Source: Adenophora triphylla var. japonica (lineage: Eukaryota > Streptophyta > Magnoliopsida > Asterales > Campanulaceae). Taken from it: 64,000 nucleotides of DNA. Position 1 is the first letter of the stretch, and every line of letters starts with the position of its first letter. The translations under genes and the position numbers were made by a program. The DNA lies in contig JAFEMH010002608.1 in the NCBI GenBank assembly GCA_022495995.1, positions 1 to 64,000 on the forward strand. Reading direction: 5' to 3'. A model generated the notes under the pieces. It was not told the origin of the DNA. It made no database searches and saw only the letters and a program-made list of their open reading frames with translations. This document shows positions 29,651 through 57,735 of the stretch, one piece after another.

Positions 29651-29689
<39 letters not shown>

Positions 29690-29784
29690 AGGTGTTCGTG
29701 TACCGAATGAAATATTGATTTTTGAGGTGTTGAATCTTCGTAGGCTATGAGTGAAGAGAGAAAAAGGAGATAAAGAAGGGGAGG

Positions 29785-30452: not shown

Positions 30453-30479
30453 TGATATTCAAATTACCTAAAATTGCCT

Positions 30480-34145: not shown

Positions 34146-34478
34146 GAAATGGGTAGAGGAGGGCTCTATTTATAGGCAGTCTGGATAAGGCTAATGAAGC
34201 CGTGCGGCTGCAGGTCCTTTGCAAATGAGGCCGTGCGGGCTTATCCATTGTGACTCAGCATTCTAGAACCATGCAAGGTGGCATTATTCTAGAACCTTCC
34301 CTCCTAATTAAAAAAACGTGTTTCTTAATTAGGAAGGATTCCCTTCAGCCTTTATTTAATTAAAAACAGTTCCGGAATGTTTCCGGAACGCTGGGAAGGT
34401 CTGGGGAATTACCGGAAAACTTACCGAAAATGTCGGGAAAATTAACCGGAAGGCATGAGCCAGATTTGGGTACTTACA
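32852..34478 (-). mobile_element. LTR D
   Basis: Termini TGTAAGTACCC (34478 on minus) and ...TTCACA (32852), about 1.63 kb. TATA box CTATAAATAG at 34166-34175; palindrome AGCCGTGCGGCT at 34198-34209 and related GCCGTGCGGGC at 34230-34240. A GTT microsatellite lies at 34110-34143, and loose repeats of gcaaatgatgca type at 33600-33780. The hairpin pair at 32999-33046 has changed stems (TTGGG/CCCAA and CTTGC/GCAAG). Internal primer-binding core at 32926-32934. Confidence 0.85.
34166..34240 (-). promoter_or_regulatory. U3 promoter of LTR D
   Basis: TATA box with AGCCGTGCGGCT 22 bp upstream. The preceding bases ggctaatgaagccgtgcggc nearly match the antisense-gene promoter of element 5b at 57550-57569. 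Confidence 0.7.
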
Positions 34479-35045
34479 GAAGCCCCTCGGCAACGTCACT
34501 TGCAAGGCGAGTGGGGTTGTCGATAGAAAAGGATCCGATCTGGCGAATGCCGAGACGGATTGGGTGACCAAGGTGGTCGAGTGCTGAAACCTTTTTGGAA
34601 GGCTACTACGTATCCCGGAGGAATCAAGCCAGGCCGTAGTTCGGAATTAGGATCCGCTGGGGAAGGAAGAAGAGAAACTGGTCTCTTGCTGGGGAAAAAG
34701 AAGAGAAAATGACCTAGGAGGTCAAGCAATTGATCCTACTGGGGATATGCAAGGAGTGACACAGGTGGTCGGATATCTGAACTTCTATGAGGGGGCGCTT
34801 TATCACTGATGAGTGACAAAGAAACAGGGTGACCAAAGTGGTCGAATGGCTGGACCTTTTATGAAAGGCTACCTACGTATCCCGGAGGAATCAAGCCTTG
34901 ATCGTAGTTCAAGCATCACTAGATAGTTAGGAACGATGTCTAGGATCCTTGAGATTTTGACAATTCGGAGGCTGTCACCTGAAGAAGCTAGAGCTTATGG
35001 CGCTATCTCTTTATGACGGAGATAGAGGTAACTTAAGTTGGGAAA
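34479..35045 (-). other. 3' UTR of element 5a, LTR-proximal part
   Basis: Polypurine-like GAGGGGCTTC abuts LTR D and would prime plus-strand DNA. Two copies of the conserved hairpin ctacgta...cgtag lie at 34601-34640 and 34867-34910. GACC-loop-GGTC hairpins lie at 34566-34578 and 34831-34843. No gene. Confidence 0.6.
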
Positions 35046-35590
35046 CTTGAGCGTACGTCACTATTCGAGGATAGAGGTAGCACAAGTTGGAATGTCCTTG
35101 GGCATACGTCACTATTCGCGGATAGAGGTAGCACAAGTTGGAATGACTTGGGCATACGTCACTATTCGCGGATAGAGGTAGCACAAGTTGGAATGTCCTT
35201 GGGCATACGTCACTATTCGCGGATAGAGGTAGCACAAGTTGGAATGACTTGGGCATACGTCACTATTCGCGGATAGAGGTAGCACAAGTTGGAATGTCTT
35301 GGGCATACGTCACTATTCGCGGATAGAGGTAGCACAAGTTGGAATGACTTGGGCATACGTCACTATTCGCGGATAGAGGTAGCACAAGTTGGAATGACTT
35401 GGGCATACGTCACTATTCGCGGATAGAGGTAGCACAAGTTGGAATGACTTGGGCATACGTCACTATTCGCGGATAGAAGTAGCACAAGTTGGAATGACTT
35501 GGGCATACGTCACTATTCGCGGATAGAGGTAGCACAAGTTGGAATGACTTGGGCATACGTCACTACTCGCGGATAGAGGTAGCACAAGTT
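35046..35590. repeat. 11-copy 50-bp minisatellite in the 3' UTR
   Basis: Unit starts of ggcatacgtcactattcgcg at about 50-bp steps from 35051 to 35551. Almost perfectly homogeneous apart from the first unit and single-base changes (acttg versus tccttg). 3' UTR minisatellites that can seed satellite DNA are known from Tat elements. Repetitive open frames here are not genes. Confidence 0.95.
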
Positions 35591-35976
35591 TAGAGTTCTG
35601 ACAATTCGGAGGTTGTCACCTAGTGTTATCCCGTTATAGCAGGAATTAACGGAGGCGGCGGGAATAAAGCTTGATTGCTAAAGAGATAAGGGATATTTTA
35701 CGAAAAGATGTTATCTTGGTTAAAAGATAACGGAAATTGCATGCCCAAGTGGAAGGTCCAGGCGGGATTGTAATTTACGCTCGGAGCGAATGAAGCCGCC
35801 GGCATGAGATGGAGAAAAGAAGCCGCGTACGGCTAGGAGCACCCGTTTTTCCGATTATTTAAAAGCAGATTTGAACGGGGGACTGGGCACTTGCTGCCGC
35901 CCACTTCAGCCAGAGAGAGAGAAGAGAGAGAGAATTTCGAAATTTCTTCAACCCTTTTTGCTTCTATCGATTGGAA
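35591..35976 (+). promoter_or_regulatory. Promoter of antisense gene 1, element 5a
   Basis: AGCCGCGTACGGCT at 35821-35834 is a slightly expanded version of the LTR D box. It is followed 21 bp later by TATTTAAAAG (35856-35865), then a purine-rich 5' UTR (gagagagagaagagag) and ATG at 35977. Confidence 0.6.
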
Positions 35977-38473
35977 TGGATCCGGAGGGCAATCCCATAC
36001 CGAGGCAAGCAAGAAGGAACATCTCCGCGGCTGCGAGAAGGAGGAGAAAGGAGCTCGTTCGGACGGAGAGGAAGTATGACTTCCTTACGCCTCCATCGGA
36101 GCTTTACCCGGGGAGAAGGGAGCATAAATCAACGAACCCGCGATCGGTTGGGGTAAGCATTCTCATTTTGCTCAAATCCGATGATTTTGCTTGAATTTTG
36201 AATGATTTAGGGCTTGACCCGAATTTTAGGATTTTTTAAATGATTTTTTGAATGATTTTGAGATGCATGAACAACCTATGAGGCTAAGAATATGCATGTG
36301 CAACTTGTTTGACAAAATTATGAGAATGACTCACTTTTTTTTCTCGCAAAATGAAGTAGGAATGAGAATTTTTCAAAATATGAGACGGAGTTCTTGCCTT
36401 GTGCTAGAACTAGGTCAAAATTCTGATTTTCAATGAGAAAACATGATTTTGGAAGATGAAAATGATTCATGCATGCCATTCTTTGAAAGAATAATGCTTA
36501 TGTGCGAAGAATTGTGATTTTGTGCTTTAGGAAAGCAATGACGCGTTTCAAGTGATGAAAGACACGTTTTTGATGCAAAAGATATGCTAGAAAAACTTTT
36601 GTGAATGCTTTTCTTTTGAAAATATGTGCACTTTTGAATATATGCATGCTTTTGAAATGATATGAAGGACTGACGCTTCTTTTTGATGTGCTTGTCTACA
36701 GGAGAACAAGTCTAGAGGACCATCGGAGATTGCAGTTAAGCTTTGGCAGAGGATGCCGGATTTTGAGAAGAATGGGGTAAATCCCAAGCGGTGGTGAGGG
36801 CTACGGCTTTGGATGCATTTGTAGAGGCCATCCGCGGGGTGTTCACATCACCTCTAAGAGCAAGGGCTTAGTCCAGGCCCTTTACGAGTTACGGTGGGAC
36901 GGTACACATAGCTTTCACACGAGTTGGGGAGAGGCGACGGTGACTCCTACCGATTTCACGGCTATTGCGGCCTACAGTTCACTTAGGGAGGCCCGTGACT
37001 TGGAGAGACCATATTACGAGGAGTTCCAGGCTTTGGTCGGGTTTGAGCTGATTCCCAAGGGGCTGGGGATGGAGACGCGGAACGTCGAGGTGGCGATTCG
37101 GACTTGCATGCGAGAACTTTGCTGCTAATGATGTGGACTGTCAGCCAGCTGGCTAGACAACATTCATATGGTTGATGCTATCAGTCACTATCTTCGCCAA
37201 TTGCAGGACGCTAGCTATGACTTGCCTCCTTGACTCTCTGGAGGATGTGGATGGGATAGGGACGGTCTCTTGGGGCGAGGCCGGATTGGCGGAGTTGTAC
37301 TTCTCATTGGACATGTACAGTCGGAACAAAGGCCGCTTCCATGGGTACTTCTCATTTGCCCTTGAGGTAGTCTCCTTTTTTTCTTTTCTCTTTTCTGTCT
37401 TGAGACTTTTATAAGAGAGAGAATGACCTTTTGATGTTTTGAACATGCGAGGCTGGTTTTGTGAGGTGATCGGGTTCTTCCCTTAGAACCAGCAGAGTGA
37501 TGTCACCATCTTCCCTGCTATGGTTATTTGGAGGAGATGCGAGAGATAAATTCACGGGAAGACCCGGATTACCTTCGATTACAAAATGGTGAGGCCGGTC
37601 ATCAACGGGGATGGGCACGACGGAGTGGACTTCTACCCACAGGGCGAGTATCCGGAGATTTTCTTTGGGAGATGCCATTGAGGTGACGAGGCGAGAGGAG
37701 GTGGCTCACTGGCGACATGTGATGTCATTTACTTGGGGGACCGCTTCTCGAGGCATGGTCATGTTCCCCCACTAGATGCCATTACTCCTTCGACCCTCCG
37801 GCCACGGATCTGCGGCCCAGGACTGGCCGGCGGATGAGATTGAGAGGTACCGAGGAGGTATAGGCTGCGGAGGAGTATTTTGACATGGGTACCCCTACGC
37901 TGTGTTTGTGGAGCGGCGCTGAGGACGCCACAAAAGCTAGTGAAGGCAGCGGTCACTCGGGGATATGGGGAGGATGAGCCTGCGACCCGCCGATCCCTCC
38001 TGCGCATCTGTCCTACGTGGTCCATGGAGTGCCGAGGAGGATGAGGATACCTGTCCCAGATGCTAGGGAGCCCCGGTACACCTTGCCGCTGATAGCATTG
38101 TAAGTGTACTCTTAGGGTCTTATTCCCTTTTTAGCTTTCAGATTTTACGCTTTTGCAATTTTACGAGATTTTCTGAGATTTTCTCTTCTTTTTCTCGGGT
38201 TCCAGCTCGCACTTACGATAGGCCGGTCGAGCGAGAATAGGGGCCGGAAGGACATGTGCCGGTCTCTTCGAGGAAGCTTGCTGCGCTTCGAAGGCGGCGG
38301 CGGATGCACGGGAGCACAGGCGCAAGAGACGGCACGTCGGGGCACAGCGTCTACCTCATCGGCCTCGGAGTACTCTTCCAGTGCCTTGCCTCGGGGGCGG
38401 GGACCCAACGCTGACATTCTGGAGCAGCTGGCTGAGTACGGGCACGATAATGTCCATTTGTCTGACGTGAGCG
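35977..38473 (+). pseudogene. Antisense gene 1 of element 5a: plant mobile domain protein
   Basis: Multi-exon gene antisense to gag-pol. Exon 1 (35977-36150) encodes MDPEGNPIPRQARRNI and a basic RRRRKELVR patch, ending at gtaagc. Exon 2 begins after ctacag (36702). The PMD block follows: WDGTHSFHTSWGEATVTP, then TDFTAIA and later GEAGLAELYFSLDMYSR, to a gtagtc donor at 37366. A further exon carries VTRREEVAHWRHVMSFTW to gtaagt (38100), and the last starts after ttccag (38206). Two or more frameshifts and stops interrupt it, and LTR E cuts it before the acidic C-terminus. PMD proteins include MAIN/MAIL; the transposon-borne role is unknown. Confidence 0.72.
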
Positions 38474-40213
38474 TGTGATGATGTTGCCATTCGCGGGAAA
38501 AATTCGATTTTTGCGTTTCTTTGAAAAACCAAATAAAACCGGAAAAACGGAGTCGCCACGCCATTTTAATTTTGAAGGGCCAAAACTTTGAAAAAAGCCC
38601 GAGATCAGAGATTTAGGTTCGGAGGTCATGTTACGCGTCGGGAAGGACGTTAGTGTGCACCCGACGCGCCTCGTAAAAACGAGTCTTCCAAGCTGAAAAT
38701 CATTTGTGTGTGTGTGTGTGTGTTTTGGCCAAAATAAGTTGAAACTCAGAAAAGTAAAAATTGGGATATCTTTTTAAGACTTTAAACTGATCCCATGATT
38801 TTTTGGAAGATTTTTGGATTGAGATTTGGTACTCAAAAGACCTTTTGAAGTTGAGAGCCATTTCTGCCAGAATGAAAAAGGCAGTGGACCTTTGATTTTG
38901 AAATGGATTCAAGGGTCTTAAAACTTCATAATCTGGATAAACTCAGAGAATGAAAGTTGTTCTAGACACCTTAAATAAAGTTTTTGCGAAGGAATTTTCC
39001 ATTTTGGAGAAGATTTGAGGGGTCAAAACCTTCTGGAAACCTCAGATATGAGATCTGGATTCTCAGAAGCTGATGAACTAGCCTCTGAAAGAAAATTTAA
39101 AAAGAGGAGTTTTACTCACCCAAAAAATAAGGTAAAAATATGTCTGGAAAGCTCTGGATGTTGGCTACAAAAAGTATTTTGTAGTCAACACCAGATTCCA
39201 AGTTCATCTGTGTCCAAAATTTAAGACCATGGACTGAGGTCTGAGAAAATTGCTACTGGACAGCAACTTCTCAAGAAAGAAAATATGATTTTAAGGGGGG
39301 TTTTGCATCCATGCTTGTCCCCATTTCCCTAGGTTTTGGTTAGTGATCACTAGACATTTTAGTGGTGAATCAACTATACCAAACCATCCTTGGGGTACAT
39401 TAGGACTAAGCATTTCATTTGCTTGGGAAGGGGAATTTTATCCTTTGAAATCAAGATTTTGTGCTTGAAAATGGTTTTTTAGGGTTTTGAAAGTGCATTT
39501 TTGCAAGTAAGCAAGAAAAGCTTTGAAAATGATGTTGATCTTTGTAGAAGATCATCCATGGAGATGGTCTTCCATGGTGATCTTCTTAGATCTAGAGCAA
39601 GAAGATGAAAGAACTACATTTTGTAGTTTGAAGATGCATGCATGGATGAGATTTAGGGTTAGGAAGAGGAGGGTTTACCAATCTTCCTTGTGTTCTTGAG
39701 TTTTTGGCTTGAGTGTATGAGTGTTTAAGGCTTGAATATGAGAGTGAATGGATGAGTATGAGTTGGGAAAGATTGGAGAGAAAAAGGTGACAATTCTTGA
39801 AGAATTCTCACTGTTTTCTCTCTATATTTCGCCAGAGGTTCGGTGCAATTGTGTTCTCCCTTTTTTATTTTTGTGACTGGAGGGCTCAATTTATAGCCCT
39901 CTGAATTTTACATACTTATCCGCGCGGACGAGTCCGGTGGCGTGCCTTTGTTCATTAAATGCGGCTCCGGCTTTGGACACAAGGAATAAAATTCAAAAAT
40001 TCCAGCAGAAATTGTTTTTCAACTTGCTGTTTCGGGTTATTTCCAATTCTTTTGCTTTTTAAGATTCCTTGGAAGGTTTAACTCTAAATAGCAATGCCCA
40101 TTTTACCCTCACTTTGTTAGAAAAGTTAGGATTGTTAGGAATTGTTAGAAATGTTATAACTTTCGTTAATTTTCTAACGAAAATTCTAACAAGCTCAAAT
40201 TGGAGCACTTACA
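38474..40213 (-). mobile_element. LTR E (3' LTR of element 4)
   Basis: Termini TGTAAGTGCTCC (40213 on minus) and ...ATCACA (38474), about 1.74 kb. TATA box CTATAAATTG at 39887-39896 with TCCGCGCGGA at 39919-39928. TG run at 38703-38725. Hairpin pair GCGTCGG/CCGACGC and CTCGT/ACGAG at 38636-38683. The left end interrupts the PMD gene of element 5a; the right end adjoins the element 4 3' UTR. Confidence 0.87.
39887..39928 (-). promoter_or_regulatory. U3 promoter of LTR E
   Basis: TATA box with palindrome TCCGCGCGGA 22 bp upstream. Confidence 0.7.
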
Positions 40214-40574
40214 GTAGCCCCTCGGCGACGGCGCTTTCGAAGGAAGCGGGGTCGTCGATAAGAGTAAGGCTCCATATTTGGCAGGATGATCGAGTGATCG
40301 GGTGGCTGAACCTAGCGATAGGCTACCTACGTATCCCGAATGGGAATCAAGCCAGTCGTAGTTCGGGTCTCTGACCCTGGAGATGATGGCGTTTTAGGTG
40401 CCTCGAACCTGATGAGCGAGTCCTGCAGTCGGTTACTGGAAAGAAACTCTGCTGGGGATAAGAGATGACCATTTTTGGTCTGATGGCTATCCGCTCTGCT
40501 GGGGATAGGAATGACCATTTTTGGTCTGACGGGTATCCGCTCTGCTGGGGATTTTTGCGATTTATCGCTTTCTA

Positions 40575-40800
40575 GTGATAGCGTCTTAGGTGCCTTGAAC
40601 CTTGGAGATGGCGTTTTAGGTGCCTCGGACCTTGGAGATGGCGTTTTAGGTGCCTCGAACCTTGATGATGGCGTTTTAGGCGCCTCGGACCTTGATGATG
40701 ATGGCCTTTTAGGCGCCTCGGACCTTGATGATGATGGCCTTTTAGGCGCCTCGGACCTTGATGATGATGGCTTTTTAGGTGCCTCGGACCTTAATTTGAA
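40575..40800. repeat. 33-36-bp minisatellite, element 4 3' UTR
   Basis: About seven units of gatggcgttttaggtgcctc / ggaccttg. They grow from 33 to 36 bp by a gat triplet in later units. The open frame through it (40511-40918) is a by-product. Confidence 0.9.
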
Positions 40801-41049
40801 ATGGCCTTTCGGTGGACTTCGTCTGCTGCCGAAGGGGAGGGTGACCGTTTTGGTCGAGGGGCTGGACCTAATGATAGGCTACCTACGTATCCCTAGTGGG
40901 AATCAAGCCCTTTCGTAGTTCGAGTACTACTCGAGATCTCGCTGGCTTTTGGGATTCCGTTAACTTTCTTTGGGGATTTCGTTAGCCTTTCTTTGAGGAA
41001 AATCAGACGTACTCGTGCAGGAAATCGGTCTTACGTTTGACTACTTGGG

Positions 41050-41412
41050 AGATGATTTTGATGAAAGATACGGGATCCGTTATCTTTCTCGGGGCACTCG
41101 GTCTTACGTTTGGCTAGCAGGGAAGATTTTGATGAAAGATACGGGATCTCGTTATCTTTCTCAGGGCACTCGGTCTTACGTTTGACTGCCGGGGGTAATT
41201 TTGATGAAAGATACGGGATCTCGTTATCTTTCTGGGGGCACTCGGTCTTACGTTTGACTGCCGGGGGTAATTTTGATGAAAGATACGGGATATCGTTATC
41301 TTTCTCAGGGCACTCGGTCTTACGTTTGACTGCCGGGGGCAATTTTGATGAAAGATACGGGATCTCGTTATCTTTCTCGGGGCACTCGGTCTTACGTTTT
41401 ACTGCCGGGGAA
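41050..41412. repeat. 71-bp minisatellite, element 4 3' UTR
   Basis: Five units with starts (gatgaaagatacggg) near 41060, 41131, 41203, 41275 and 41346. Open frames on both strands through it are repetitive and not genes. Confidence 0.92.
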
Positions 41413-41528
41413 GATTTTCTTGACAAGGGGTTGACTTTGGTTAACTTTGGTTACCTTTGTCAAGTTGGGGACTGAATTGCGGAGTCCTGGAATTTTAAGG
41501 GGCAAAAGGGTCATTTTGACCCTTGCAA

Positions 41529-41704
41529 TCCTATCCGCGCGGATAGGGACTGAAAACCAGGGGTATTAATTAGGGCCAACGCCCTTTCTCTTCCCCATTC
41601 AGTTTTTTGAGTTTTACGAGAGCAGAGGGAGAGAAACCAGCCATTCCGCCATTTTTGGCCATTTAAGCTTCAAAATTCCTCCGATTTTCTTGATTTTTCG
41701 AGCG
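41529..41704 (+). promoter_or_regulatory. Promoter of antisense gene 1, element 4
   Basis: An 18-bp perfect palindrome CCTATCCGCGCGGATAGG at 41530-41547, its core matching the LTR E/F box, followed 20 bp later by TATTAATT (41564-41571). ATG at 41705. Confidence 0.65.
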
Positions 41705-44528
41705 ATGGAACACGGGGAAGGCGCTTTTCAAGGCCAAGGACGTGGCCCGGTAGCGGAGAGGCGATTGGAGCTCGTCCGGATGAGGAGGCATTACAATCTT
41801 TCGCAATCGGTTGAGGAGGAGTATTACCCCGATGCTTGGCAACATTGGGCTTCGGATCCGCATCTCCGAACGGTATACTTTGAAACCCTTTGATCCCTTT
41901 GTTGATTTCTTGCTTGAAATTTGAATTTTGGGTGATTTTTGAATTAATTTTTTTTTTGAAAATTCGAACGATTGATGTTCTTGGCTTTGAATCTTGATTT
42001 TGATGCTTTGCATGTTGTAATGAGTATATGAGTAACCTAAAATGTGCACTTTGCTTGGGAAAAAGAATTGGCATTTTTGCCACATTTTTTTTTCAATTCG
42101 AAAATTACATGTGAAAATTCGAAGAATTGTGATTTTTTTTTTGAAATTAAATATTGCATTTTGATGATGATGATTTTTTTTTGAAATTGAATTTTGATAT
42201 TTGATGAATGATGATGCAATGCATGCATTTTGTTTGGAAAGAATGGGCATTTTGCCAATATGGGATGTATATATATTTTTTTGAAAAGTGGGACGGATTT
42301 TTCCTCCCGTTGCATGTAAGATGGATGATATGCATGTATGCATTTTTTGTTGAAAATGGGACGGAGTTTTTACTTCCGTAGGAATGCATCCTTTTTTTTT
42401 TTGATGAATGCATTGGGACTTGCTGAAAATTGTTTTCTTTCATGCGAGAAAAATGGGGCTATGCTCATTGTATGCTGTTATGCTGTCGGATTTTTTTTTT
42501 TTTTTAATGTAAATGCAAATGCAATCTTTTTGACATTTTCTCTTTTTTTTTTTTTTTTTTACGGGGCGGACACCGTTTTGTGACGGGCTTGGTGAACAAG
42601 ATGAAGACTCGAGGGTCGGTGGAGTACGTGATTGACTTGTGGGATCGGCTTCCGGATGCGGGCCGAGGAGCTTTGCCGAGTCCGAGACAGTTGTTGTCGA
42701 GACGGGGCTCGGGAGTTCGTCGAGTGCTTGAGGGGACCGGGTCAAGTTCCCTAAGAGCAAGGGCTTGATGTTTGCTGCGCGCGGCCTTTGGTGGGACGCG
42801 ACCCACACCTTCCACTTCTTCGGGGCGAGGCTACGATTACGCCCTCCGACTATGCTGCGATTACGGGCTGTCCTTTAATGGACGCGGCATTGAGTGGCGG
42901 GATGGCTACGGCGATGCCGATCTGCGAGCTCTTAAGGATTTTCCCCTATTCCCAAAAAGGGGATGGGGATGGAGTATGCCGTGGTCTACGGCAAGATTGT
43001 GGAGACCATTGCGAGCTATGAGGCCGGGAGGAGAGGATAGGCGCCGTCAGTTGCCGGGGCCTTCTTGTGGTTTGCCTTTTCGAGCACCCTCTTTGGGCAT
43101 CTTTGAGGGACGGCGATCTTTGCCTTCTTGAGGTCCTTGGAGGACATGGAGACGGCCGGAGATGTCTCTGGGGAGAGGCCGGGCTGGCGAGCTTTATTTT
43201 GCTCTTGATAGGTACAGTAGGAAGGCTGTGAGCTCCTTGTACTGCTTCGAGTTTGCCCTGGAGGTATAAGCTCTCTTTTTGCTTTCCCTCTCTTTTTTGA
43301 GCACGCACTTTTCTTTTGCACTGGATTGATTGGATTTTGACCTTTCGCAGGTATGGGCATTGGAGTTTTTCCACGTCACGGTGTGGCGGCGGCCGGCGGA
43401 GTACGTCGGGCGTATCCGGTCATGCGATCTTGGTCCAAGCATGCCGGGAGAAGATAAGCTCCGAGGGCGTACGACTCTCGTGTGCGCGGATTGCCTTCCT
43501 TTGACGGAGGCCGAGACGGATGAGGGGATGATATTCTTCCCACAGGATCGCTTTGAGGTAGCGCTTGGTGAAGGCGGCGAGATCCGGACGGTGCGGCGGA
43601 GGATTTTGAGGGTCGACTGCGATGCCTATTATCTGGGAGAGAGGGTGACGCGCCGGCATGGCGTGAACTCGCCTTTGAGGACACCGGTGGAGCCTCCTGC
43701 CGATATGATGCACCCGAGCGATCGGTCCGTGACACTGGGATGATTATCGAGCGAGTCGGCACTTCTCGGACTTCGTGGCGATTGAGCCGTATGCGACATT
43801 CGTCTTGAGGAGGCTGAGGATGCCTCGGGTTACGGATAGGGAGGGGCTTGGGATCCCGCGGTACCCTCGGACGGATTTTTCCTATATCCAGGATGGGGTC
43901 CGATTGAGGGTGCAAATCCCTCAGCCCGAGCGACTTCCACGAGCTTTCCGGCCTCGTCCGGGTATGAAGGTATGGCTTCTCTTTCCTTTTTTTTTTTTAG
44001 CATCACTTCCCTTTTTTTTTTTGACGCTTTTGCTTTTGTGCAGTTTTCGGAGGTGGTCGTCGAGAAGCTGACGAAGCAAGTGATCGGAGCCAAGAGGTTC
44101 ATCAGGAGGATGGTCGCTTGCGGGGCTCCTCAGGCTAGAGCGAGGCGACCACGGCCGGCGCCTGTCAGACGGGAGGCTTCCCCTATTCGCTCAGAGACTT
44201 CTTCAGAGACTCCTTTGTCTCCTCTCCTTGATCCTCGCGCGGTGTTGCCTTCGGATCACGTCATTCTCGGGGATCCACACGGGCGAGGACACGTATGGCG
44301 GCATGGCGGGTCGTCTTCGTACGTGCGGGAGTCAGACGCCTTCACCTTCGGGTACGATTTTTCGCGAGATCTTGGCTTGCCCTATCGGAGCGTGTCGGTT
44401 GGTCTGACGAGCCTCTCTCTGGAGACGAGGACGATTCCCGAGCCGAGATTTTCAGGGCTCCTGAGGAGGCGGGCCCGAGTCGCAAGAGGGGCCGGGGGGA
44501 GACATCGGGTGCTGGAGACTCCGATTGA
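41705..44528 (+). pseudogene. Antisense gene 1 of element 4: plant mobile domain protein
   Basis: Exon 1 (41705-41872) encodes MEHGEGAFQG and RRLELVRMRRHYN, with donor gtatac. A long AT-rich intron follows. Exon 2 (about 42560-43264) carries VNKMKTRGSVEYVIDLWDRL, then WWDATHTFHFFG, EATITPSDYAAITG and the RAGELYFALDRYSRK-type end of the PMD. Exon 3 starts after tttcgcag (43350) with VWALEFFHVTVWRRPAEY, and exon 4 after tgtgcag (44041). The tail is basic, then acidic (DEPLSGDEDDSR), stopping at 44528. Frameshifts near 42650-42900 and 43735 break it, but splice sites and domain order are clear. Role unknown; the family is suspected of nuclear functions. Confidence 0.75.
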
Positions 44529-45009
44529 TTTTTTTTTTTTTGAGATTTAGATTTGTACAGATTATGCACATTTTTTTTTGGATGTAATAATTTAGGATTT
44601 TATTTATGTTTGTTTGTTTTTTTTTTATGCACACTCTCTTTTTTTTTTTTTGGAATGTAATAATTTAGGATTTTATTTTATGAATGCAATGCAATATGAA
44701 TGCAGTGTTGCATGAGCCTTGGTTTTTTTTTTTTTTGCAAGGGTGTTTGGTATATGGACTGGTTTGGGGAGGTTTTTTTTTTTTTGCACAGGTTTCGAGC
44801 AACCGGGACGGAATATTCCTCTTTTGGAGTAGCAGCTTGGACTGTTGCAGATTTTTTTTGGAAAGCAATCCCATCCGCGCGGATGGGGACTGCATCTGAC
44901 AGTGTCCTTTAATTTTGGTTCAGACCTGGTCTTGCTTTATTTCAAATTCAAATATCCTCTTCAACCTCCAGTCCAAACAGCCATTTTCGGGGAGAAAGAG
45001 AGAAAAACC
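44529..45009 (+). promoter_or_regulatory. Intergenic region and promoter of antisense gene 2, element 4
   Basis: T-runs and an aatttaggattttattt repeat (44587 and 44662), possibly the polyadenylation area of gene 1. Then an 18-bp perfect palindrome CCCATCCGCGCGGATGGG at 44870-44887 with AT-rich TTTAATTTT about 24 bp downstream. ATG at 45010. The bases around the palindrome (gcaatcc...gggactg) also match the gene 1 promoter. Confidence 0.6.
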
Positions 45010-46510
45010 ATGGAAATGGCCAAAAATTCTCCAAAATTGTCCAAAGAAAGGCAAATGTTGTTCTTTGAAAAGTTCAAGGAGTGGTGTAGGGAGATCATGC
45101 ACGAGAGAAGATCATTCTTTGAAGAAAGGTACAAGGTACGATGCTTGTGGTCTCTCAAAGAATTGGTTCCGGATTATGACCTCTTAAGAGCTTCTTCTTC
45201 GTTTTGGGATACTAGAAGGCATGTCTTTTGCCTTTCCTTCAACGAGATTGTTCCGACTGTCGAAGAATTTCGGGCCTTGCTTGGAGGTCCGGAGGTGGAA
45301 GAGATAGCGGTCCCTTTGCCCGGAGTGGCTTCTTTTCTTGACGAGATTGTGCGTCCTCCTTCATCTTTCCCCGGAGGAAGCGCAAGGTATGATCCGCGGT
45401 CCCGATCATTTCGATATTTCCGGTCTTCCCGACAGATTTAGGAGCCTAGGCTTGGTGGATGATGCCTATTGGGATGCCTTTGCACTTTGTATGTTTGGCA
45501 CCCTGTTCATGGTCTATTCCTTTGGGATTTGCCATCGGTCTCTGCTGGATGTTGTCGTTCAGCATCACACAGGCAGAGATGTCGTTCCTTTGATTCTTGG
45601 GGAGACTTTTCATGCTCTCGACAGTTAGCTACCGGACGGCGGTACATGCACGGGGGCAGCCCGTTTCTCTTGACCCCGTGGGCGATGGAGCGTTTGGGGG
45701 TTCTTCGGGAAACCTACGATATGATCGAGGCCTTGGACTTTTGCCGGGAGAGGTGTTGATGTAGATTTTGATGATCGGGGCTCGTGGGAGCGTTGGATGG
45801 CGGGTCGCCGGGCAGAAGATATCGAGATGGTTGGTGCCTCATTGGCGGGTGGAGACTCGCGAGTGCTTCGGGACGGGTCCCAGGTGGTTATGCTTCCGGG
45901 GCTTTCTCGGTCCGGTTCTACATTTCGGCTCACGGTCTGAGACGGTTTGGCTTGGAGCGAGGTTCCTTTGGAGGGTTTTGATGATATAGCCACCGGGGTG
46001 GTGGCTCCTGTTTCCATGGATGATCCCTCGGTGTTTCCATTTCTTTCCCGAGCATGGAGGTATGATGCCTTTCCCCCTCGGGTCATTCTCGGGCGTCAGA
46101 GACCGGTGTTCTTGACCACTTGGTACCTGGATTGGTATGAGAGGCGTGCAGGAGAGACTCGAGGTGGCTATTTTGAGACGGCGTAGAGGCCATTGTGGGT
46201 GCGGAGGACCGACTGTTTGAGAGGAGGAAGGCGAGGCGAGGGCCAACCCTCGTGACGGGAGCGGAGACGCGTGGCCGACTACGAGGCTTACGTCAAGAGA
46301 CGGGAGAGGAGGGCTCCTATGCTACCGGCTAGGCTACGGGAGATGAGGGATGACGCTAGGGCTACTAAGGCCCTGACGGAGGCTGGTTTGATAGACCCTG
46401 TCCCTATACCGCAGCTTGGTAGGAGGAATACCGACATTTTTCCGGTTCGAGAAGAAAAAGACTCGAAGGGGAAGAAGAAGGGAGAGGCCGATCTGAGTGG
46501 CTTGGAGTGA
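45010..46510 (+). pseudogene. Antisense gene 2 of element 4: DUF7745-like protein
   Basis: Intronless, about 500 codons if frame changes are ignored. It opens MEMAKNSPKLSKERQM, then the FCLSFNEIVPTVEEFRALLG motif (about residue 75), which resembles the start of plant DUF7745/PMD-related transposon proteins. Later parts are DISGLPDRFRSLGLVDD and SPFLLTPWAMERLGV, which fit the same family. The end is highly charged (ADYEAYVKRRERR; EEKDSKGKKKGEAD). Frameshifts lie near 45390 and 45630, with stops near 45760 and 46185. It converges on the integrase gene. Family assignment is from memory of motif order and should be checked. Confidence 0.6.
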
Positions 46511-46930: not shown

Positions 46931-46979
<49 letters not shown>

Positions 46980-47047
46980 TTTTTTTTGTTCTTTTTTTTT
47001 CTTGTTTTTTTTTTTTTGTTTTTTTTTTTTTTGGTCTTTTTTTTTTT
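46511..47047. other. Convergent intergenic region with hairpin and poly-T
   Basis: Lies between antisense gene 2 (plus) and integrase (minus). A conserved ctacgt...cgtag hairpin at 46761-46800, then a T-rich tract from about 46819 to 47050, including a run of over 40 T. It may serve transcript termination on one or both strands. ORFs of poly-Phe are artefacts. Confidence 0.6.
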
Positions 47048-49752: not shown

Positions 49753-51273
49753 GGGATCCTCTTTTTCGAGTCCGGAGTTTCATTTGTCTTAACATAGGGG
49801 CGGCGATCTTCTTTTGGTGCTTGATCTGTGGCCTTCTTATCTGCCTTGGGATTTCCTTGGAAAATCTGCCCAGAGCGGGTCAACAGATTAACTTCCTCAT
49901 CAGTCGTCTCTTGACTGGATTTCTTCAATGCTGCTAGGGTCAATGGGGGAGCCCTTTTGGCTATTGGCCATTGGTTCCGACGGAGTCTAGGGACAGTGAG
50001 GGACTGAGGTGTACTGGCTCCTTCCTGGGCGGCCCTTATAACTGCTTCCCAAGTCACAGGCTTTCGGGTTTGGGGTTGTGTTGTTGCCCCCTGGATGGCC
50101 CACAGAGCTAGGGCGTCCTCTGATTCACTCTCATGGCCGGCCTTGCTCATTGTTATCATGCAACAAGAGTCGCTATTGTCGGGACTCGGCGGCTTTTCGA
50201 TTTCATCCCCGGTATAGTGCAGCCATTCTGGTTCCTTTCTGTAATATTCAGAGTTGGAGATGATTATAGCACTTTGTGTTGGAGGCGCATCCGGTATCAT
50301 GCCAGTTTCTAGGACTTCTCTGAAAGCTGACATACATTCGGGAAAGGTGACCTCTTCTTGGGTAACCCTGATAAGGATCGTTACCTTGCTTTCGGGCGGA
50401 TTTGATCTGACCAGGGTTATTTTCTCATTTGGGCGGATGGGAGTTAATTTTCCTCTTTCTAGCAAATCTTCAACTATCCGCTTGGATCGGATGTCTGAGA
50501 ATCCTTTCCCCAAAGCATGGTAGGCAGTGTTGAATTCTATGACTTCCACATACTGTTCATGAAATTTCATGGCTTTCATGTCCTCGGTCTCATATTCGTC
50601 TTCCGAAGTTTCCTCGTCGTCGCTTGCTGACAACCAACCATTGTGCCTAGCTCCCATGGGCTCATTTTCGGCATGATTGTTCCAGATTGCTTCCGGATCG
50701 GGGGCCTCAGTTGACTCTTCACTCTCGTCATCATCATCATCATCGCTGTCGTCGGAATCTTCTTCCCATACTACCGGGATTTCGCCGAGAGGGAACGTCG
50801 ATCAAACCGTTTGGGGAATATGGGTGCGTGCAACCGCAAAATTGTCATATGTTCCCATTCCCGGAAGCGGCAATTGTGACTCGCCTTCTCCTCCCGTAAA
50901 TTGCGGGGGAAGAGTGAGAGGGGTGGCACGTATTTGACACCGGGTAGGATATAGAAGGAATCCTCCTCTTCCGATTCTTCGCCTGTTCTCGGGATCATAT
51001 TCGGGCTTTCCCAAAGCCAATTTGCAAAAGTGTACTAGCTCCGAGATGCTCTTCGGCCTCTTTCTTTGATAAGCCCCAAGTCACAGTGCTCCCGCCGGAA
51101 GCTTTCTTGTTCGATTCTTCTCGATTGTTCTAACCATCTTGTGTAAATGGTCCTCTCATATTTTGAGCGGAACAGCCCAGTTCTTCGGTATCGGCCTCCC
51201 CTTCATCCGAGAAATAGCGGGACTCGTATTCTTGCAAGGAGTCTCGACATGAGACCAAGATGGGTTGATTCGT
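49737..51273 (-). pseudogene. Gag C-terminal acidic region, element 4
   Basis: The open frame 50657-49737 (306 codons) begins MGARHNGWLSASDDEETSED. It contains the segment YVEVIEFNTAYHALGKGF and ends in a linker to protease. Upstream, in other frames, lie LPLPGMGTYDNFAVA and a DDSDDDDDDESEES acidic run. It corresponds to the spacer between zinc knuckle and protease in Tat polyproteins. Confidence 0.65.
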
Positions 51274-52168
51274 TCAACATGTCCTCAAGGCCGAGGGGAA
51301 TCCGAATTCGGGATCCTCGACGAGGTTGGCCACGGGTATTTGGGGACCTTCATCGGCATCTTCACTGGCATGCGAAGATTCTCCGCATTCAATCATATTC
51401 ACCTGATTATGGTTCCGTGGCAGCGGATTTTTGAGTGTGTTAGGCCCTCGGGGCCTTCCAACTTTCCTTGCTCTATTAGCCCTGGATTGCCTTTTTGAGT
51501 AAAGGAAGCGGCTATGGGTCGGATGTCCAGTGAGCTTGATGAAGGCACAATACTTTGTAGTATCCACGGGAGCATTCGGATTTCTGGGTTGGAAATTCTC
51601 CAAAGGCCGCAAGCAAGCCTTCTTTCACCGATCCCTAAAGATGTCATTCGGGGGCATCCCAAAGTTTTCGAGATTTATGACCCGCGTGCAGGCTCCGGCT
51701 TCCTGGGAACAAAAGGAGTCGTGTTGTTACATTCACCTGTCCCGCATAGTTAATCATCTCTTTGCCTTTAGCGGGAAGCAGGGCGGTGTTTGCGGGAGGA
51801 GCCCGTATCTGTAGCGGAGTGCGAGCGGTCCGGTTGCGATTGTAGGCCTTTTCAAACTTAGGCTGCGGAGTTAACCGTGGCAGTAAGTACGAGTATGGGA
51901 AGTGACTGAGGAGGCTCTCGAATGTGGTTTCAAGCATGGCTTGGAAGATGTCCGGTTGTTCCTCTTCGGAAGGAGGGATGGCCATTTCACTGAGTTTCGG
52001 ATTCCACCGCTTGTAGAAGTCCCCAACATTCTCGTGGAATGCACTTGTTGTTTGTAGGTCAACCCTATTTGTTTCCCATTCCAAGTTGGCCTTATATTTC
52101 TCTGTGAAGGCATTGGTAATCTGGTCCCATGTGGCCACACGGCCCGAGGTTTCAAACGGAAGAACCAT
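51274..52168 (-). pseudogene. Gag core (retrotrans_gag) and zinc-knuckle region, element 4
   Basis: The 52168-51644 frame reads WDQITNAFTEKYKANLE, then HENVGDFYKRW and LSEMAIPPSEEEQPDIF, the typical retrotrans_gag pattern (W...F...F, then F...RW). Downstream in another frame, KYCAFIKLTGHPT (about 51560-51520) resembles the C..H....GH...C knuckle region, partly decayed. This is the only gag core recognisable in the window. It would form the particle shell. Confidence 0.75.
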
Positions 52169-53400
52169 TTTAAGGCACTTTGGACTTCAAGGATAGGCCC
52201 GAAATAGTCGAGCTTCTTGATTGGTGCACCATCCTTTGGCTTTCATCGCCAAGGTATATGTGTCCAAATGGGTTTTGGGACATGCGGTCCCATCAAAGAG
52301 ATCCGAGATTAGGCATCACGAATTTGTGGGGGGAGAGGAACAATGGAGTCCGGGTGCACGTACTTAGGCCGGAAGGCGAGACTTCTTGGCGATCGGTTCG
52401 GCGATACTGCGCTTTCATTTCCTTGTGTTGTTCCATGAACCGGGCCGGATGAGGGTCTTGTGGCGGAACCATGGCATTCAAGCTAGTGGTGAGCTAGAGA
52501 GAGGAGCTACCACTGAGGCGGGCGGGTGGAGAGGGAACGGCCGATCCCGGGGACGTAGGTGAAAACTGTCACAGGGGGTGAGTTACCACAGGGAGCATGA
52601 GTAGGAGCACGAGCAAAAGGGTAGAACCTTGCGGCTTCTGTTGATTTTCAAGGCGGCAAAGTAGGTGGGGGCGAGCCGATGTAGCCAGGATAACTTGGAT
52701 TTCAGTGGGGCCCGTAAGTAGGCTTGAGTGCGGGGCTGCTGTCCGGATTGTTGAATTGCATGGCTGCTTGTGGTGAAGGTGTGTAACCGGGGAAGTGCTG
52801 CGGTCCTGGTGATTCGGATGACCTTAGGGATGGAGGCTTGGTAACCCGTAGAAGTGCGAGTGAGGAATGGATTTGTGTGAGGAGCGGTGAACTAATTACG
52901 AGGAGGGGCTACCAGGTTGTGGCGGCATTCCAAAGCTGTGGGTCCATTCTTTGTGAGGTCCGGATTGATCGGTTCCGAGCGAGGGAGGATCCAGTGGGCG
53001 TGGCATTCCGAGATAGCCCAAACCATGAGAAGACATTCCTTGCGATTTTGCCCCATTGATTTGTGCCGTCGGGCTGCATGGATCCGGTGGTGCGTGGTTG
53101 GGGAGGCTGGTTGTCCCGAAAATCGAGAGCATGGAGTTACGGTAGTGGCACCATAGGAGGTGGGTGGCGGCATCTGGTGTAGTCGGGCGTGAGAGTGGGG
53201 TTAGCATCCTGCGTCTTCTTCCACGGTGAAGGTGCCATACGGATTGAGGGCGCGGCCAGGATCGTGACTCTTAATAGCCTCCATAAAAGTTTGTTTAGTG
53301 TGCTTCTGTCGTAACCTCATACGATACGCTAGCGATTCCCTTTGTTGCTCTGTACGAGGGTCCGGGAGGCGGAGTGGCGTTATCCCCATCATTACCGGGC
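52169..53400 (-). pseudogene. Gag N-terminal and Pro-rich region, element 4
   Basis: Strongly decayed. 53392-53201 holds EQQRESLAYRMRLRQKH and YGTFTVEEDA, matching the EEQQDWI...GTFVLIEDE region of element 3. 53200-52480 is Pro/Gly-rich linker without a stable frame. Confidence 0.5.
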
Positions 53401-54605
53401 GATGCGAGACATTCGAAACCGGAGTCGGAACAAAGCAGTGAAGGCGACGATGCGCTTGACTCTTCCCAAGCGATCAAACGGTGACCCGGTGCCGAAACCA
53501 AGCTTTGTGCGGAGGCTGCGGGGGAAAGGACATGAAGGTTCGGATGTGCAGGAATGGAAGGAGGGTAGGTGTTTGGGCTTTAGGCTCATACGACATGCGA
53601 TTATTTGTTCACGTTTACTTAAAACATGTTTTATTAACCTAATTGGTTGGAAAAGATTGCTCTTCTTTTTCGCAAGCTACTACGATTCTGGATCGGTGGG
53701 CCCCGTCACTACGTCTATAAGCCCCTCGTATTCCACTGTATTTCGACCTCCCGGGGTGGACGGCCCGGGCGAGGGTCCTATAGGGCAAGCGGGTCCCACC
53801 AGGCCGAAAGAAAAACGATCCTAAAAGTCTGGCGGGTAATCGAGTCTTAACGAGCATTCGATGTAAAATTACGGACAAAGGCGACGTCGAAAGTCAAGAT
53901 CATGTCAGGGGCTCGACGAAAAGTCGGCATGATTTGGGCGATAAATGTCCACGATTGATCTTGACTTGTCGTCGGTTAAGCCGTAATTAGGCATGGAATA
54001 TTCATTAATCCTTGATGACTCGGTGTCAATCTTTGGGAGTCGGTGTATAATTTGTGCGATCGGAGCCGAAGTCAAGGCGCCGGTCAATATCTTGGTCAAA
54101 GTCTGCGGCGGAAAGCCGGCGAGCTTCGGCGATAAGGGTCCCGAAAGATATTGAGTCGGTATGCCGACAAAGGCTTGAAAGGAAAGGTCTATACACGGAC
54201 GGGGGCATGACACGGACCGGACTAAAAACCAACAGGGTCTCGGACAAAGTGTGTCACGGACAAGTGCGTAGTCGACACGAGGCTCCATTAGGATGTTTGG
54301 GTAGTCACATTGTGCTCATCAGAGGCGTAATAAGACCAAACGGACCGCGACAAGGATTTCCCCGGGTTAAGGACGTAGTGTGCAGTGTACGGTCACGTGC
54401 GCGTAGTGTGCAAGCAGTCTATATTCTTTTTCTGAGTAAAATAGAAATTTTTTTTTTTATGTGTCTTAAAAATATGATGCATGATTTATTTTTTTTTTTG
54501 AGAATTTTCTTCTTCTTTTTTTTTCTTTCTTTTTTGAAAATCTTTTTTTTTTGAATTTTTTTTTTTGAAATTTTTAATGAGCACATAAGCACGTAAGCAC
54601 GAAAA
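53401..54605 (-). other. 5' leader of element 4
   Basis: Has the conserved leader block (53625-53825, with tataagcccctcg) and one gtgtgcagtgtac...gcgcgtagtgtgc unit (54379-54412). A T-rich stretch with short TTTGAAAA inverted pieces follows. The canonical primer-binding site is truncated: only gagtcgcca remains and runs straight into the LTR interior. Confidence 0.65.
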
Positions 54606-56292
54606 CGGAGTCGCCACGCCATTTTAATTTTGAGGGCCAAAACTTTGAAAAAAGCCCGAGATCAGAGATTTAGGTTCGGAGGTCATGTTACGCGTCGGGA
54701 AGGACGTTAGTGTGCACCCAACGCGCCTCGTAAAACGAGTCTTCCAAGCTGAAAATCATTTGTGTGTGTGTGTGCGTGTGTGTTTTGGCCAAAATAAGTT
54801 GAAACTCAGAAAAGTAAAAATTGGGATATCTTTCTAAGACTTTAAACTGATCCCATGATTTTTTGGAAGATTTTTGGATTGAGATTTGGTACTCAAAAGA
54901 CCTTTTGAAGTTGAGAGCCATTTCTGCCAGAGTGAAAAAGGCAGTGGACCTTTGATTTTGAAATGGATTCAAGGGTCTTAAAACTTCATAATCTGGATAA
55001 ACTCAGAGAATGAAAGTTGTTCTAGACACCTTAAATAAGATTTGTACGAAGGTATTTTCCATTTTGGAGAAGATTTAAGGGGTCAAAACCTTCTGGAAAC
55101 CTCAGATATGAGATCTGGATTCCCAGAAGCTGATGAACTAGCCTCTGAAAGAAAATTTGAAAAGAGGAGTTTTACTCACCCAAAAAATAAAGTAAAAATA
55201 TGTCTGGAAATCTCTGGATATTGGCTACAAAAAGTATTTTGTAATCAACACCAAATTCCAAGTTTATCTGTGTCCAAAAATTAAGACCATGGACTGAGGT
55301 CTGAGAAAATTGCTACTGGACAGCAACTTCTCAAGAAAGAAAATATGATTTTAAGGGGGGTTTTGCATCCATGCTTGTCCCCATTTCCCTAGGTTTTGGT
55401 TAGTGATCACTAGACATTTTAGTGGTGAATCAACTATACCAAACCATCCTTAGAATTACATGAGGACTAAGCATTTCATTTGCTTGGGAAGGGGATTTTT
55501 ATCCTTTGAAAATGAGATTTTATGCTTGAAAATGGTTTTTAGGGTTTTGAAAATGAGTTTTCTTTGTAAGAAAGTAAGAAAACTTGAAAATAATTTTGAT
55601 CTTTGTAGAAGATCATCCATGGAGATGGTCTTCCATGGTGATCTTCTTAGATCTAGAGCAAGAAGATGAAAGAACTACATTTTGTAGTTTGAAGATGCAT
55701 GCATGGATGAGATTTAGGGTTAGGAAGAGGAGGGTTTACCAATCTTCCTTGTGTTCTTGAGTGTTTTGCTTGAGTGTATGAGTGTTTAGGGCTTTAATAT
55801 GAGAGTAGAGTGGATGAGTATGAGTTGGGAAAGATTGGAGAGAAAATGGTGACAATTCTTGAAGTGAATTCTCCTTTGTTTTCTCTCTATATTTCGCCGA
55901 GGTTCGGTGCAAAATGTGTTGTTCCTTCTTTATTTTTGTATTTGGAGGGCTCAATTTATAGCCCTACTGAAATATGCAAAGATGTCCGCGCGGATGGGAT
56001 CCCTCGGCGATGCCTTTGTTCATTAAATGCGGCTCCGGCTTTGGACAAGAAGAATATTTCTTTTCAAAATTCAAATTAACGGCCCGGTTTTGTGTTTCCG
56101 GCCATTGCCATTTTTGGTTTTCTTCGTTTGTTTTGCTTTTGAGATTCTTTTTAAGGTTTAACCTTAAATAACAATGCCCATTTTACCCTCACTTTGTTAG
56201 AAAAGTGAGGATTGTTAGGAATTATTAGAAATGTTATAACTTTCGTTAATTTTCTAACGAAAATTCTAACAAGCTCAAATTGGAGCACTTAC
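54606..56292 (-). mobile_element. LTR F (5' LTR of element 4, end-deleted)
   Basis: Near-identical to LTR E from the internal gagtcgccacgcc onwards, but lacks the terminal ~75 bp that LTR E has at 38474-38549. The 5' end reads GTAAGTGCTCC with the first base(s) altered (acttac then gggcgag). TATA box CTATAAATTG at 55952-55961; TCCGCGCGGA at 55985-55994. Hairpin pair at 54692-54739. Confidence 0.85.
55952..55994 (-). promoter_or_regulatory. U3 promoter of LTR F
   Basis: TATA box with palindrome TCCGCGCGGA 23 bp upstream, as in LTR E. Confidence 0.7.
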
Positions 56293-57208
56293 GGGCGAGT
56301 ATCCAGGAGATCTTCTTTGGGAGATGCCATTGATGTGACGAGGCGAGAGGAGGTGGCTCACTGGCGACATGTGATGTCATTTACTTGGGGGACCGTTTCT
56401 CGGCGGCATGGCCATGTCCCTCCATTGGACGCCATTACTCCACACGATCCTCCGGCCACGGATGCTACGGCCCGGGGATTGGCCGAGAGGATGAGATAGC
56501 AAGTACCCGAGCGGGCGTGGGCTGAGAGGAGTACTGGCATGGACACCCCCTACTGGCTGTGTTTGTGGAGCGGCGCGAGGACGCCACGAGGAAGCTAGTG
56601 AAGGCGGCGGTCACTCGGGGGATATGGGGAGGATGAGCCCTCTTGACCCGCGCACCGATCCCTCTGGCATCGTCCTACGTGGTCCATGGAGTGCCGAGGA
56701 GGATGAGGATACTGTCCCCGATGCTAGGGAGCCCGGTACACCTTGCCGCTGATAGCACTTTGTGAGTATACTTTTAGGGTCCTTCCCTTTTGACATTTCG
56801 AGATTTTACGCTTTTTGCAATTTTAGATTTTAGATTTTTAGATTTTCTCTTCTTTTCTCGGAGTTCCGGCTCGCACTTACGATAGAGTGATCGGGCGGAA
56901 TAGGGGCTGGAAGGACATGTGCGGTCTCTTACGAGGAAGCGGCTGCGCCGAAGGCGGCGGCGGATGCACGGGAGCACAGGCGCGAGACGGCACGTCGGGG
57001 GCACGGCGTCTACCTCATCGGCCTCGGAATACTCTTCCGGTGCCATGCCTCGAGGGCGGGGACCCAGCGGCCCGACATTCTGGGCGGTGGTGCGAGTACG
57101 GGCACGATAATGTCCATTTGTCGACGTGAGCGACCGGGGAGGACTTGATGAGGAGGCTAGCATCTATGAGTTGAGCGGCGATGAGGAGGAAGAAGAATCG
57201 GAGGCCTA
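56293..57208 (+). pseudogene. Antisense gene 1 (PMD), 3' part, element 5b
   Basis: Starts mid-exon where LTR F ends (GRVSRRSSLGDAI-type reading; VTRREEVAHWRHVMSFTW). It continues with the same donor gtgagt (about 56762) and the last exon (from about 56872). It ends in an acidic tail (YELSGDEEEEESEA) and a stop at 57206-57208. The first ~830 bp duplicate 37644-38473 of element 5a with clear divergence. Frameshifted at several points. Confidence 0.65.
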
Positions 57209-57735
57209 GGAGGTCTCTAGGATAGATTTGGAGCGAAAACAAACAATGAACAATTTTTATGCACACTTTGTTTATTTTTGCTTTATTTGGCGCCGATGGG
57301 GCGAAAACATTGTATTTACATTTTATTTACTTTTCTAATTTATGCTTTTTCAATTTGCATATTATGTCACGAGCCTTGGGGGCGACTTTTTGCTTAGGAA
57401 TTGGGGTGGCTGGGCCAAAATGATTTATAATGGTATATAAATGCTTGAATGGCTTCTACGGATATGTTTTTGTACGGGTTTTGGTTGAAAAAGTGGGGTG
57501 AAAACTCCCTTGGGCAGCAACTTTGGTTGCTGCAGAATTTCTGCGAGAGGGCTAATGTAGCCGTGCGGCATGGCCTTGAGGAAAATGAAGCCGTGCGGCT
57601 TACGGTTCTGTCACAGTGGTTATTTTACGAATAAAAGCAAGGCTTGGCCATTTCATTTCATTTTCACTCTAGACTTGTCCCAATTGTTCCCGAGCATATT
57701 TTGGACCTAAAAGCACCATCTTTGAACACTTTGCG
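57209..57735 (+). promoter_or_regulatory. Promoter region of antisense gene 2, element 5b
   Basis: Two GCCGTGCGGC boxes (57560-57569 and 57590-57599, the latter within AAGCCGTGCGGCTT), followed by ACGAATAAAAG about 30 bp downstream (57628-57638). The remainder is the AT-rich end of gene 1. Confidence 0.6.

Follow-up and report, generated by a model that had tools for sequence, protein, structure and literature searches.

Family-specific versions of one composite promoter box shared by LTRs and antisense genes of Ty3/gypsy elements in Adenophora triphylla var. japonica

In each of four families of Ty3/gypsy retrotransposons of Adenophora triphylla var. japonica, a separate version of a short composite box is common to the long terminal repeat (LTR) and to two genes lying antisense to the element, here called gene 1 and gene 2. 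It directly precedes the TATA box in the LTR and is placed ahead of both antisense genes, singly or in clusters of two to four. The window, i.e. the whole stretch of 64,000 nucleotides that was analysed, belongs to contig JAFEMH010002608.1 (C2608) within the 2.48-Gb assembly and consists of nested Ty3/gypsy elements in minus orientation, as judged from internal repeats and from reading the sequence. The boxes are probably, though by no means certainly, operators of a family-private circuit which is read by a regulator encoded by the element itself.

Results

One composite site in family versions

All boxes can be described as one composite site, approximately GCAA-N6/7-CCG-NN-CGG, in which CCG..CGG is constant and the neighbouring bases vary by family. 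The flank-symmetric boxes, all with CCG-NN-CGG, are TCCGCGCGGA in family 4, GCCGTGCGGC or GCCGTACGGC in family 5, GTCCGGCCGGAC in family A and GTCCGTACGGAC in family B. When 30 boxes from the window and from the stretches L027, L030 and L041-L044 were aligned by their centres (L042_32, at a stretch end, was left out of the profile), the similarity between promoters of one family was confined to a zone from about -16 to +8 relative to the centre of the box, with almost none beyond. Identity between different promoters of the same family was 0.46, 0.63, 0.68, 0.78, 0.72 and 0.42 in the 4-bp bins from -16 to +7 and 0.18-0.36 outside them, for rows that are not independent since boxes 30 bp apart overlap. 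Between families the arm bin (0.49) and CCG..CGG (0.57-0.65) are kept, while the bins adjoining the core drop to 0.34 and 0.17. The orientation of the arm relative to the element is constant in most rows, despite the opposite transcription of LTR and genes. Copying of whole promoters was considered and rejected, since same-family similarity ends sharply outside the box. The inner pair of family 5 differs by promoter, being TG in the LTR and gene 2 and TA in gene 1, and the family mark there therefore lies outside the centre.

Boxes in the window

The LTR and the antisense genes are both visible only for elements 4 and 5, so that the window alone gives n=2. The preliminary description had claimed that the antisense genes of these two elements carry the palindrome version of their own LTR, and the words on which this was based are all present. 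TCCGCGCGGA occurs in element 4 in LTR E (39919) and LTR F (55985) and also at 41534 and 44874, where it is embedded in perfect palindromes of 18 bp (41530-41547 and 44870-44887). Element 5 has AGCCGTGCGGCT at 34198 (LTR D) and 57589, GCCGTGCGGC at 57560 and 57590, and AGCCGCGTACGGCT at 35821. A second and weaker box in LTR D lies 31 bp off (CCG at 34231). The short distance to a TATA-like word described for gene 1 holds as well: in element 4 CGG and TATTAATTA are separated by 21 nt, and in element 5 the 14-mer and TTATTTAAAA by 20 nt. Two relatives of element 5 (L027 and L030) have AGCCGTACGGCT as gene-1 box, and the gene-1 14-mer of the window therefore looks derived.

When the window was set against 200 dinucleotide-shuffled versions of itself, 16 copies of CCGNNCGG had one or more symmetric flank bases (shuffle mean 2.5, maximum 8) and 9 had three or more (mean 0.17, maximum 2), and TCCGCGCGGA was observed 5 times (mean 0.04, maximum 1). 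Palindromes of 18 bp as such are unremarkable, with 3 in the window against a shuffle mean of 0.35 and a maximum of 4.

Version matching in the genome

Forward counts in the genome, with the count of the reversed-pattern control in brackets, were 2,094 (0) for CCTATCCGCGCGGATAGG, 47,555 (0) for GGTCCGTACGGACC, 8,174 (1) for AGTCCGGCCGGACT, 19,579 (321) for ATCCGCGCGGAY and 6,525 (15) for AAGCCGTRCGGCT; the four versions have from 6,525 to 47,555 occurrences each. Pairing was tested on the contigs with complete site lists, i.e. C1:1-2,900,159, and C2-C7 for versions 5 and A. Merging of boxes less than 600 bp apart on C1 gave 97 sites and 46 pairs at 1-7 kb, of which 36 were of the same version, as compared with a mean of 11.7 and a maximum of 24 in 10,000 label permutations, none of which was as high. 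On C2-C7, 23 of the 24 pairs match (permutation mean 13.7; 3 of 20,000 as high). The matching anticipated earlier for a larger sample was thus borne out, same-version pairs being far above permutation in both sets.

LTR-end landmarks, of which at least 100 were listed, 31 of them on C1, gave a similar picture for the two related element groups that the landmark favours. Exact boxes were present in both LTR and interior at 11 of the 31 C1 landmarks, and 12 had no exact box. The two boxes were of the same version in 10 of these 11 cases (7 family 4, 3 family 5) and differed in one, where a version A box lies 7.4 kb inside. Twelve landmark sites were also fetched in list order, skipping one already covered, and searched with up to one mismatch; 8 had an LTR box and 5 of these a gene-1 box as well, and the half-site class of LTR and gene 1 agreed in all five (1 TCCG, 4 GCCG). 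Exact boxes in the 20 stretches L005-L024 were nearly all of family 4 (50), with a single one of family 5, and neither version A nor version B was represented. An LTR-side box accompanies 15 of the 19 gene-1 sites in these stretches, a box on the gene-2 side likewise 15, and 12 have the two together, with L008 being an LTR match outside the 19 and L017 stopping short of the LTR. One of these stretches (L019:744-1388) has an element-4-type LTR end directly upstream of a family-5-like gene 2 start, a nested insertion which removes the gene 2 promoter.

Versions A and B are seen in the window in LTRs, and the positions of their antisense promoters were predicted from box coordinates alone, for A at C1:205763 and 202570 and for B at C1:564394/564424 and 567910. 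All four predicted 1.1-kb stretches contained the family's box with a matching reading frame downstream, and are thus antisense promoters. The gene-2 pieces of A and B matched family-4 gene 2 with BLASTP E values of 2e-22 and 6e-28, and the gene-1 first exons matched element 5 with 2e-07 (A) and 0.001 (B, weak), where elements 4 and 5 match each other with 3e-05. Pfam gave a weak DUF7745 match of 11.9 bits for one piece (L042) and no match for the two others scanned (L043 and L041). It is thereby shown for each of the four families that its LTR, gene 1 and gene 2 have one version in common, and the link that the preliminary description had drawn between the LTR and the opposite-strand genes stands with genome-wide matching added to it; its unit is the element family and not the single element. 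C1 also holds extra groups of ATCCGCGCGGAC boxes (e.g. 1345561-1346838 and 2935407-2936578), with pairs about 31 bp apart and another box 1.1-1.2 kb off, which may represent one more family with the family-4 core.

Position in the LTR promoter

Twenty family-4-type LTR ends were compared without requiring an LTR box (15 from the gene-1-box stretches, 4 landmark sites and 1 from the window). The distance from TCCGCGCGGA to TTTATAG was 23 nt in 15 of them and 24 nt in one; three had box variants with 1-2 changed bases and one lacked the TATA word. Two of the four landmark sites had the exact box and two had variants. Conservation was 0.96 in the box columns, 0.72 in the 20 bp on either side and 0.84 in the rest, so the LTR box is a conserved island within a variable stretch. 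The nearest boxes were 29-33 bp apart in 8 of 10 identified multi-box contexts, counted by hand: LTR, gene 1 and gene 2 of family 5, the same three of family B, gene 1 of L033, and the LTR of L036, where one box is imperfect. The exceptions are LTR A (92 bp) and LTR C (108 bp).

Products of the antisense genes

Gene 1 encodes a plant mobile domain (PMD; PF10536), which two family-4 copies match with 81.1 (L022) and 65.6 bits (L020) at a gathering cut-off of 34.9; the window exon of element 5 gene 1 stays below it. Gene 2 appears by sequence to belong with DUF7745-like proteins (PF24924, gathering cut-off 26). Its database relative P0001 (55% identity across 56% of the query) scores 28.9 bits, and pieces from the genome studied score 11.9 to 25.3 bits, including a copy in L019 related to element 5 gene 2 with 21.8 bits; two gene 2 pieces also have weak PMD matches. 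PF04195 (TRP28) was not found in the scanned pieces, which are broken copies and fragments. The protein database gave one relative for gene 2 and two for gene 1. No relatives were found in viral contigs (searched with a reverse transcriptase (RT)/RNase H piece, a gene-2 piece and the PMD alignment) or in genome contigs (searched with P0001 and the PMD alignment), and among solved structures gene 2 gave one chance-level match (E 0.41).

Organisation of the window

The 5' LTRs in the window are A (about 9.3-11.3 kb), B (17.7-19.03 kb), C (21.5-22.7 kb) and F (54.6-56.29 kb), and the 3' LTRs are D (32.9-34.47 kb) and E (38.47-40.21 kb). Element 4 spans LTR E to LTR F. Element 5, with LTR D as its 3' LTR, is split by element 4 and continues past the right end of the window. 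Each of the two has two plus-strand genes between pol and the 3' LTR (Table 1). No antisense genes were found in the window for the elements behind LTRs A, B and C, all three of which are cut short.

Table 1. Boxes, TATA words and antisense genes in the window
Feature	Position	Strand	Remark
LTR A, version A, two boxes AGTCCGGCCGGACT	10851..10956	.	10851-10864, 10943-10956
LTR B, version B, four boxes GGTCCGTACGGACC	18581..18836	.	18581-18602 (22-bp palindrome), 18692, 18723, 18823
LTR C, boxes TCCGCGCGGA and GTCCGTGCGGAC	22377..22495	.	22377 and 22484
LTR D, TATA box, plus-strand TATTTATAG	34168..34176	-	
LTR D (element 5, 3' LTR), boxes AGCCGTGCGGCT and GGCCGTGCGG	34198..34238	.	AGCCGTGCGGCT at 34198; 31 bp apart
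Element 5 gene 1 promoter, boxes GCCGCCGGC and AGCCGCGTACGGCT	35795..35834	+	GCCGCCGGC imperfect; AGCCGCGTACGGCT at 35821
Element 5 antisense gene 1	35979..38473	+	broken, introns, PMD-like (20.8 bits, cut-off 34.9)
LTR E, TATA box, plus-strand TTTATAG	39890..39896	-	23 nt from box
LTR E (element 4, 3' LTR), box TCCGCGCGGA	39919..39928	.	
Element 4 gene 1 promoter, box CCTATCCGCGCGGATAGG	41530..41547	+	perfect 18-bp palindrome
Element 4 gene 1, TATA-like word TATTAATTA	41564..41572	+	
Element 4 antisense gene 1	41705..44525	+	broken, introns; relatives in L020, L022 match PMD PF10536
Element 4 gene 2 promoter, box CCCATCCGCGCGGATGGG	44870..44887	+	perfect 18-bp palindrome
Element 4 antisense gene 2	45010..46507	+	broken, DUF7745-like
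LTR F (element 4, 5' LTR), box TCCGCGCGGA	55985..55994	.	
Element 5 gene 2 promoter, two boxes GCCGTGCGGC	57559..57600	+	30 bp apart
Element 5 antisense gene 2	57736..59200	+	broken; no Pfam match in one scanned piece (58456-58980)

The element behind LTR B has RT, RNase H, a second RNase H-like domain and a G-patch. Alignments of pol stretches give about 67-72% identity among elements 4, 5 and B and 77% between B and C; the 5' leader reaches 80-83%. The G-patch (22.4 bits, cut-off 22) lies next to an aspartyl protease in the gag-pol of the LTR B element (14233-15630, minus strand), and plant Gypsy elements with a G-patch have already been reported (PMC9289625). A direct repeat of 832 bp from element 5 gene 1 (37642-38473 and 56293-57132) flanks element 4 on both sides; its copies are 86% identical, and LTRs E and F 92%. 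One reading is that two element-4-type insertions, located at different points in two copies of element 5, recombined ectopically and so made element 4 a chimera. A 1.8-kb unit occurs three times in tandem at 23609-28742 (copies 96-97% identical), adjoined by an inverted repeat at 28925-30457. Family-specific tandem repeats lie between the 3' LTR and antisense gene 1 at 35021-35590 (50 bp units) and 41025-41418 (about 72 bp units), in a place where Retand elements are likewise known to have them, and no CCGNNCGG was found inside these two arrays.

Discussion

A palindrome adjoining the TATA box at three promoters, with versions that shift in step in each family, is the trace expected of a self-encoded dimeric regulator. 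Such a DNA-binding protein would read its own family's version and would most likely be encoded by gene 1, gene 2 or both; these genes are the natural candidates because they stand under the site themselves. By such feedback the element would control its genomic RNA and its regulators together, and the families may have evolved differing versions with matching readers, by which cross-talk would be avoided. The pair spacing of about 30 bp corresponds to three helical turns and would set two dimers on one face of the DNA. Activation or anti-silencing seems more plausible than repression: the LTR has retained the site, although the loss of a purely repressive one there would aid spread. More specifically, it is quite possible, if short of probable, that the PMD and DUF7745 antisense proteins form a DNA-binding pair reading GCAA-N6/7-CCG-NN-CGG, which would mean that one genome houses four or more reader/operator systems insulated from each other, each having thousands to tens of thousands of sites.

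Several observations weigh against this interpretation. Ten of the 46 C1 pairs mismatch, although these look like neighbouring elements, and 4 of the 12 fetched landmark sites had no recognisable box within 3 kb at up to one mismatch. The families are few, and counted by family the four give a chance of (1/4!)^2 = 0.0017, which is not the pair-level figure. A version is not unique to one element, because TCCGCGCGGA is also present at 22377 in LTR C of another element, and a clear TATA word was not found at every antisense promoter (e.g. L044). The AlphaFold model of gene 2, built from 8 sequences, has a mean predicted local distance difference test (pLDDT) score of 38 and is useless, and no DNA-binding activity is shown for PMD or DUF7745 in the available text of the literature searched.

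The pattern could also have been left by host transcription factors of one DNA-binding family, with the element families specialised on different paralogues and the antisense genes sharing the LTR site for expression in the same cells. In plants, LTR promoters generally depend on host factors, which agrees with this serious rival, and a set of related host paralogues could likewise account for a core CCG..CGG that stays constant while its neighbours change. It requires, however, a separate host reader for each version and a parallel change at three promoters per family, and we regard it as the less likely explanation; an element-encoded regulator is favoured over host factors as the probable reader. 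That the box instead serves repression, or silencing by the host (e.g. as a CpG-rich nucleation site), and is kept by the element for dosage control with an element or host repressor as reader, is improbable. CpG-rich palindromes within a silenced repeat would suit such a role, and MAIN and MAIL1, two genic PMD proteins, take part in silencing (PMC5418596, PMC7156037), but a site serving only the host should decay in successful families, yet the box is the most conserved piece of its surroundings; self-limiting repression may still apply.

The shared arm orientation and the similarity of up to about 24 bp would be expected if promoter modules had been copied or converted between LTR and antisense genes without any matching reader. 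This is very improbable, since the similarity ends sharply outside the box, the LTR TATA spacing is kept, and the steady difference in the family 5 centre (TA in gene 1, TG in LTR and gene 2) would be erased by conversion. Chance or base composition is hardly credible. With two elements in the window a coincidence was conceivable, and 18-bp palindromes as such are not in excess, but the 2,094 to 47,555 genome sites stand against 0 to 321 for the reversed patterns; chance was refuted by the pairing tests on C1 and C2-C7, and the window shuffles also speak against chance palindromes.

An element-encoded reader of this kind would resemble VANC of the VANDAL elements, whose evolving motifs have been described (PMC5735166, PMC10398659). 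VANDAL elements of Arabidopsis (MULE) likewise have element-specific short non-coding motifs, with versions differing between related families and a proposed self-encoded reader, and an element-specific motif differing between related families was found here. VANDAL motifs build up in tandem-repeat arrays, whereas the present boxes are single or few and lie at LTR retrotransposon promoters, and VANDAL elements are DNA transposons, unlike the present elements with LTRs, RT, RNase H and integrase domains. The likeness lies in sequence, with binding and anti-silencing being putative; by this analogy it can fairly be inferred that the antisense product would read the box and activate or unsilence in the manner of VANC.

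Antisense open reading frames (ORFs) of Retand and the own antisense promoter of Grande have been reported, with a suggested regulatory role (PMC11963269, PMC7264820), and as with Retand and Grande gene23 the antisense ORFs here lie between pol and the 3' LTR. TRP28 (PF04195) is present in 97% of clusters there, in contrast to PMD and DUF7745 here, and no shared operator is described for Retand or Grande in the available text of the literature searched. PMD genes occur in Gypsy elements across angiosperms (PMD-A1/A2), with function called unknown (PMC5418596, PMC9289625); PMD is encoded likewise in the present elements, and the available portions of those reports describe no tie to LTR promoter motifs. 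It has been speculated that PMDs captured by MULEs serve anti-silencing (PMC5418596). In Arabidopsis, the genic PMD proteins MAIN and MAIL1 are required, directly or via another factor, for genes with one promoter motif (PMC7156037, PMC9899485). MAIN/MAIL1/PP7L and the DOWN motif thus likewise tie PMD proteins to a shared promoter motif, but the genes are host genes, and direct recognition is not shown in the text available. The DOWN motif in MORC1, CATGCAGTTT (PMC9899485), has only TGCA(A/G) in common with the box arm. In these letters the arm TGCAA/TGCAG (e.g. 18575-18602, and L042) resembles the PMD-dependent motif, a likeness that is no more than a hint. The RY element likewise has TGCA as its core.

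Earlier work thus already covers Gypsy elements with PMD genes, as well as the guess that antisense ORFs are regulatory, while the operator common to LTR and antisense genes is new within the available text of the literature searched, where it was not found; the original Grande gene23 and plant Gypsy extra-ORF reports lay outside that search. DUF7745 is not named in the literature searched. The role of the antisense genes and of Gypsy-encoded PMDs is an open question in the available literature, which the shared operator opens to direct testing, matched and mismatched boxes serving as internal controls. Should a host factor be the reader, the boxes would still point to the factor that drives some very abundant repeats of the genome. 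With an element protein as reader, private regulators akin to VANC or retroviral transactivators would exist in plant LTR elements, in natural orthogonal versions. If the PMD and DUF7745 proteins are indeed that reader, plant Gypsy elements would encode their own sequence-specific transcriptional regulators, and PMD would gain its original job.

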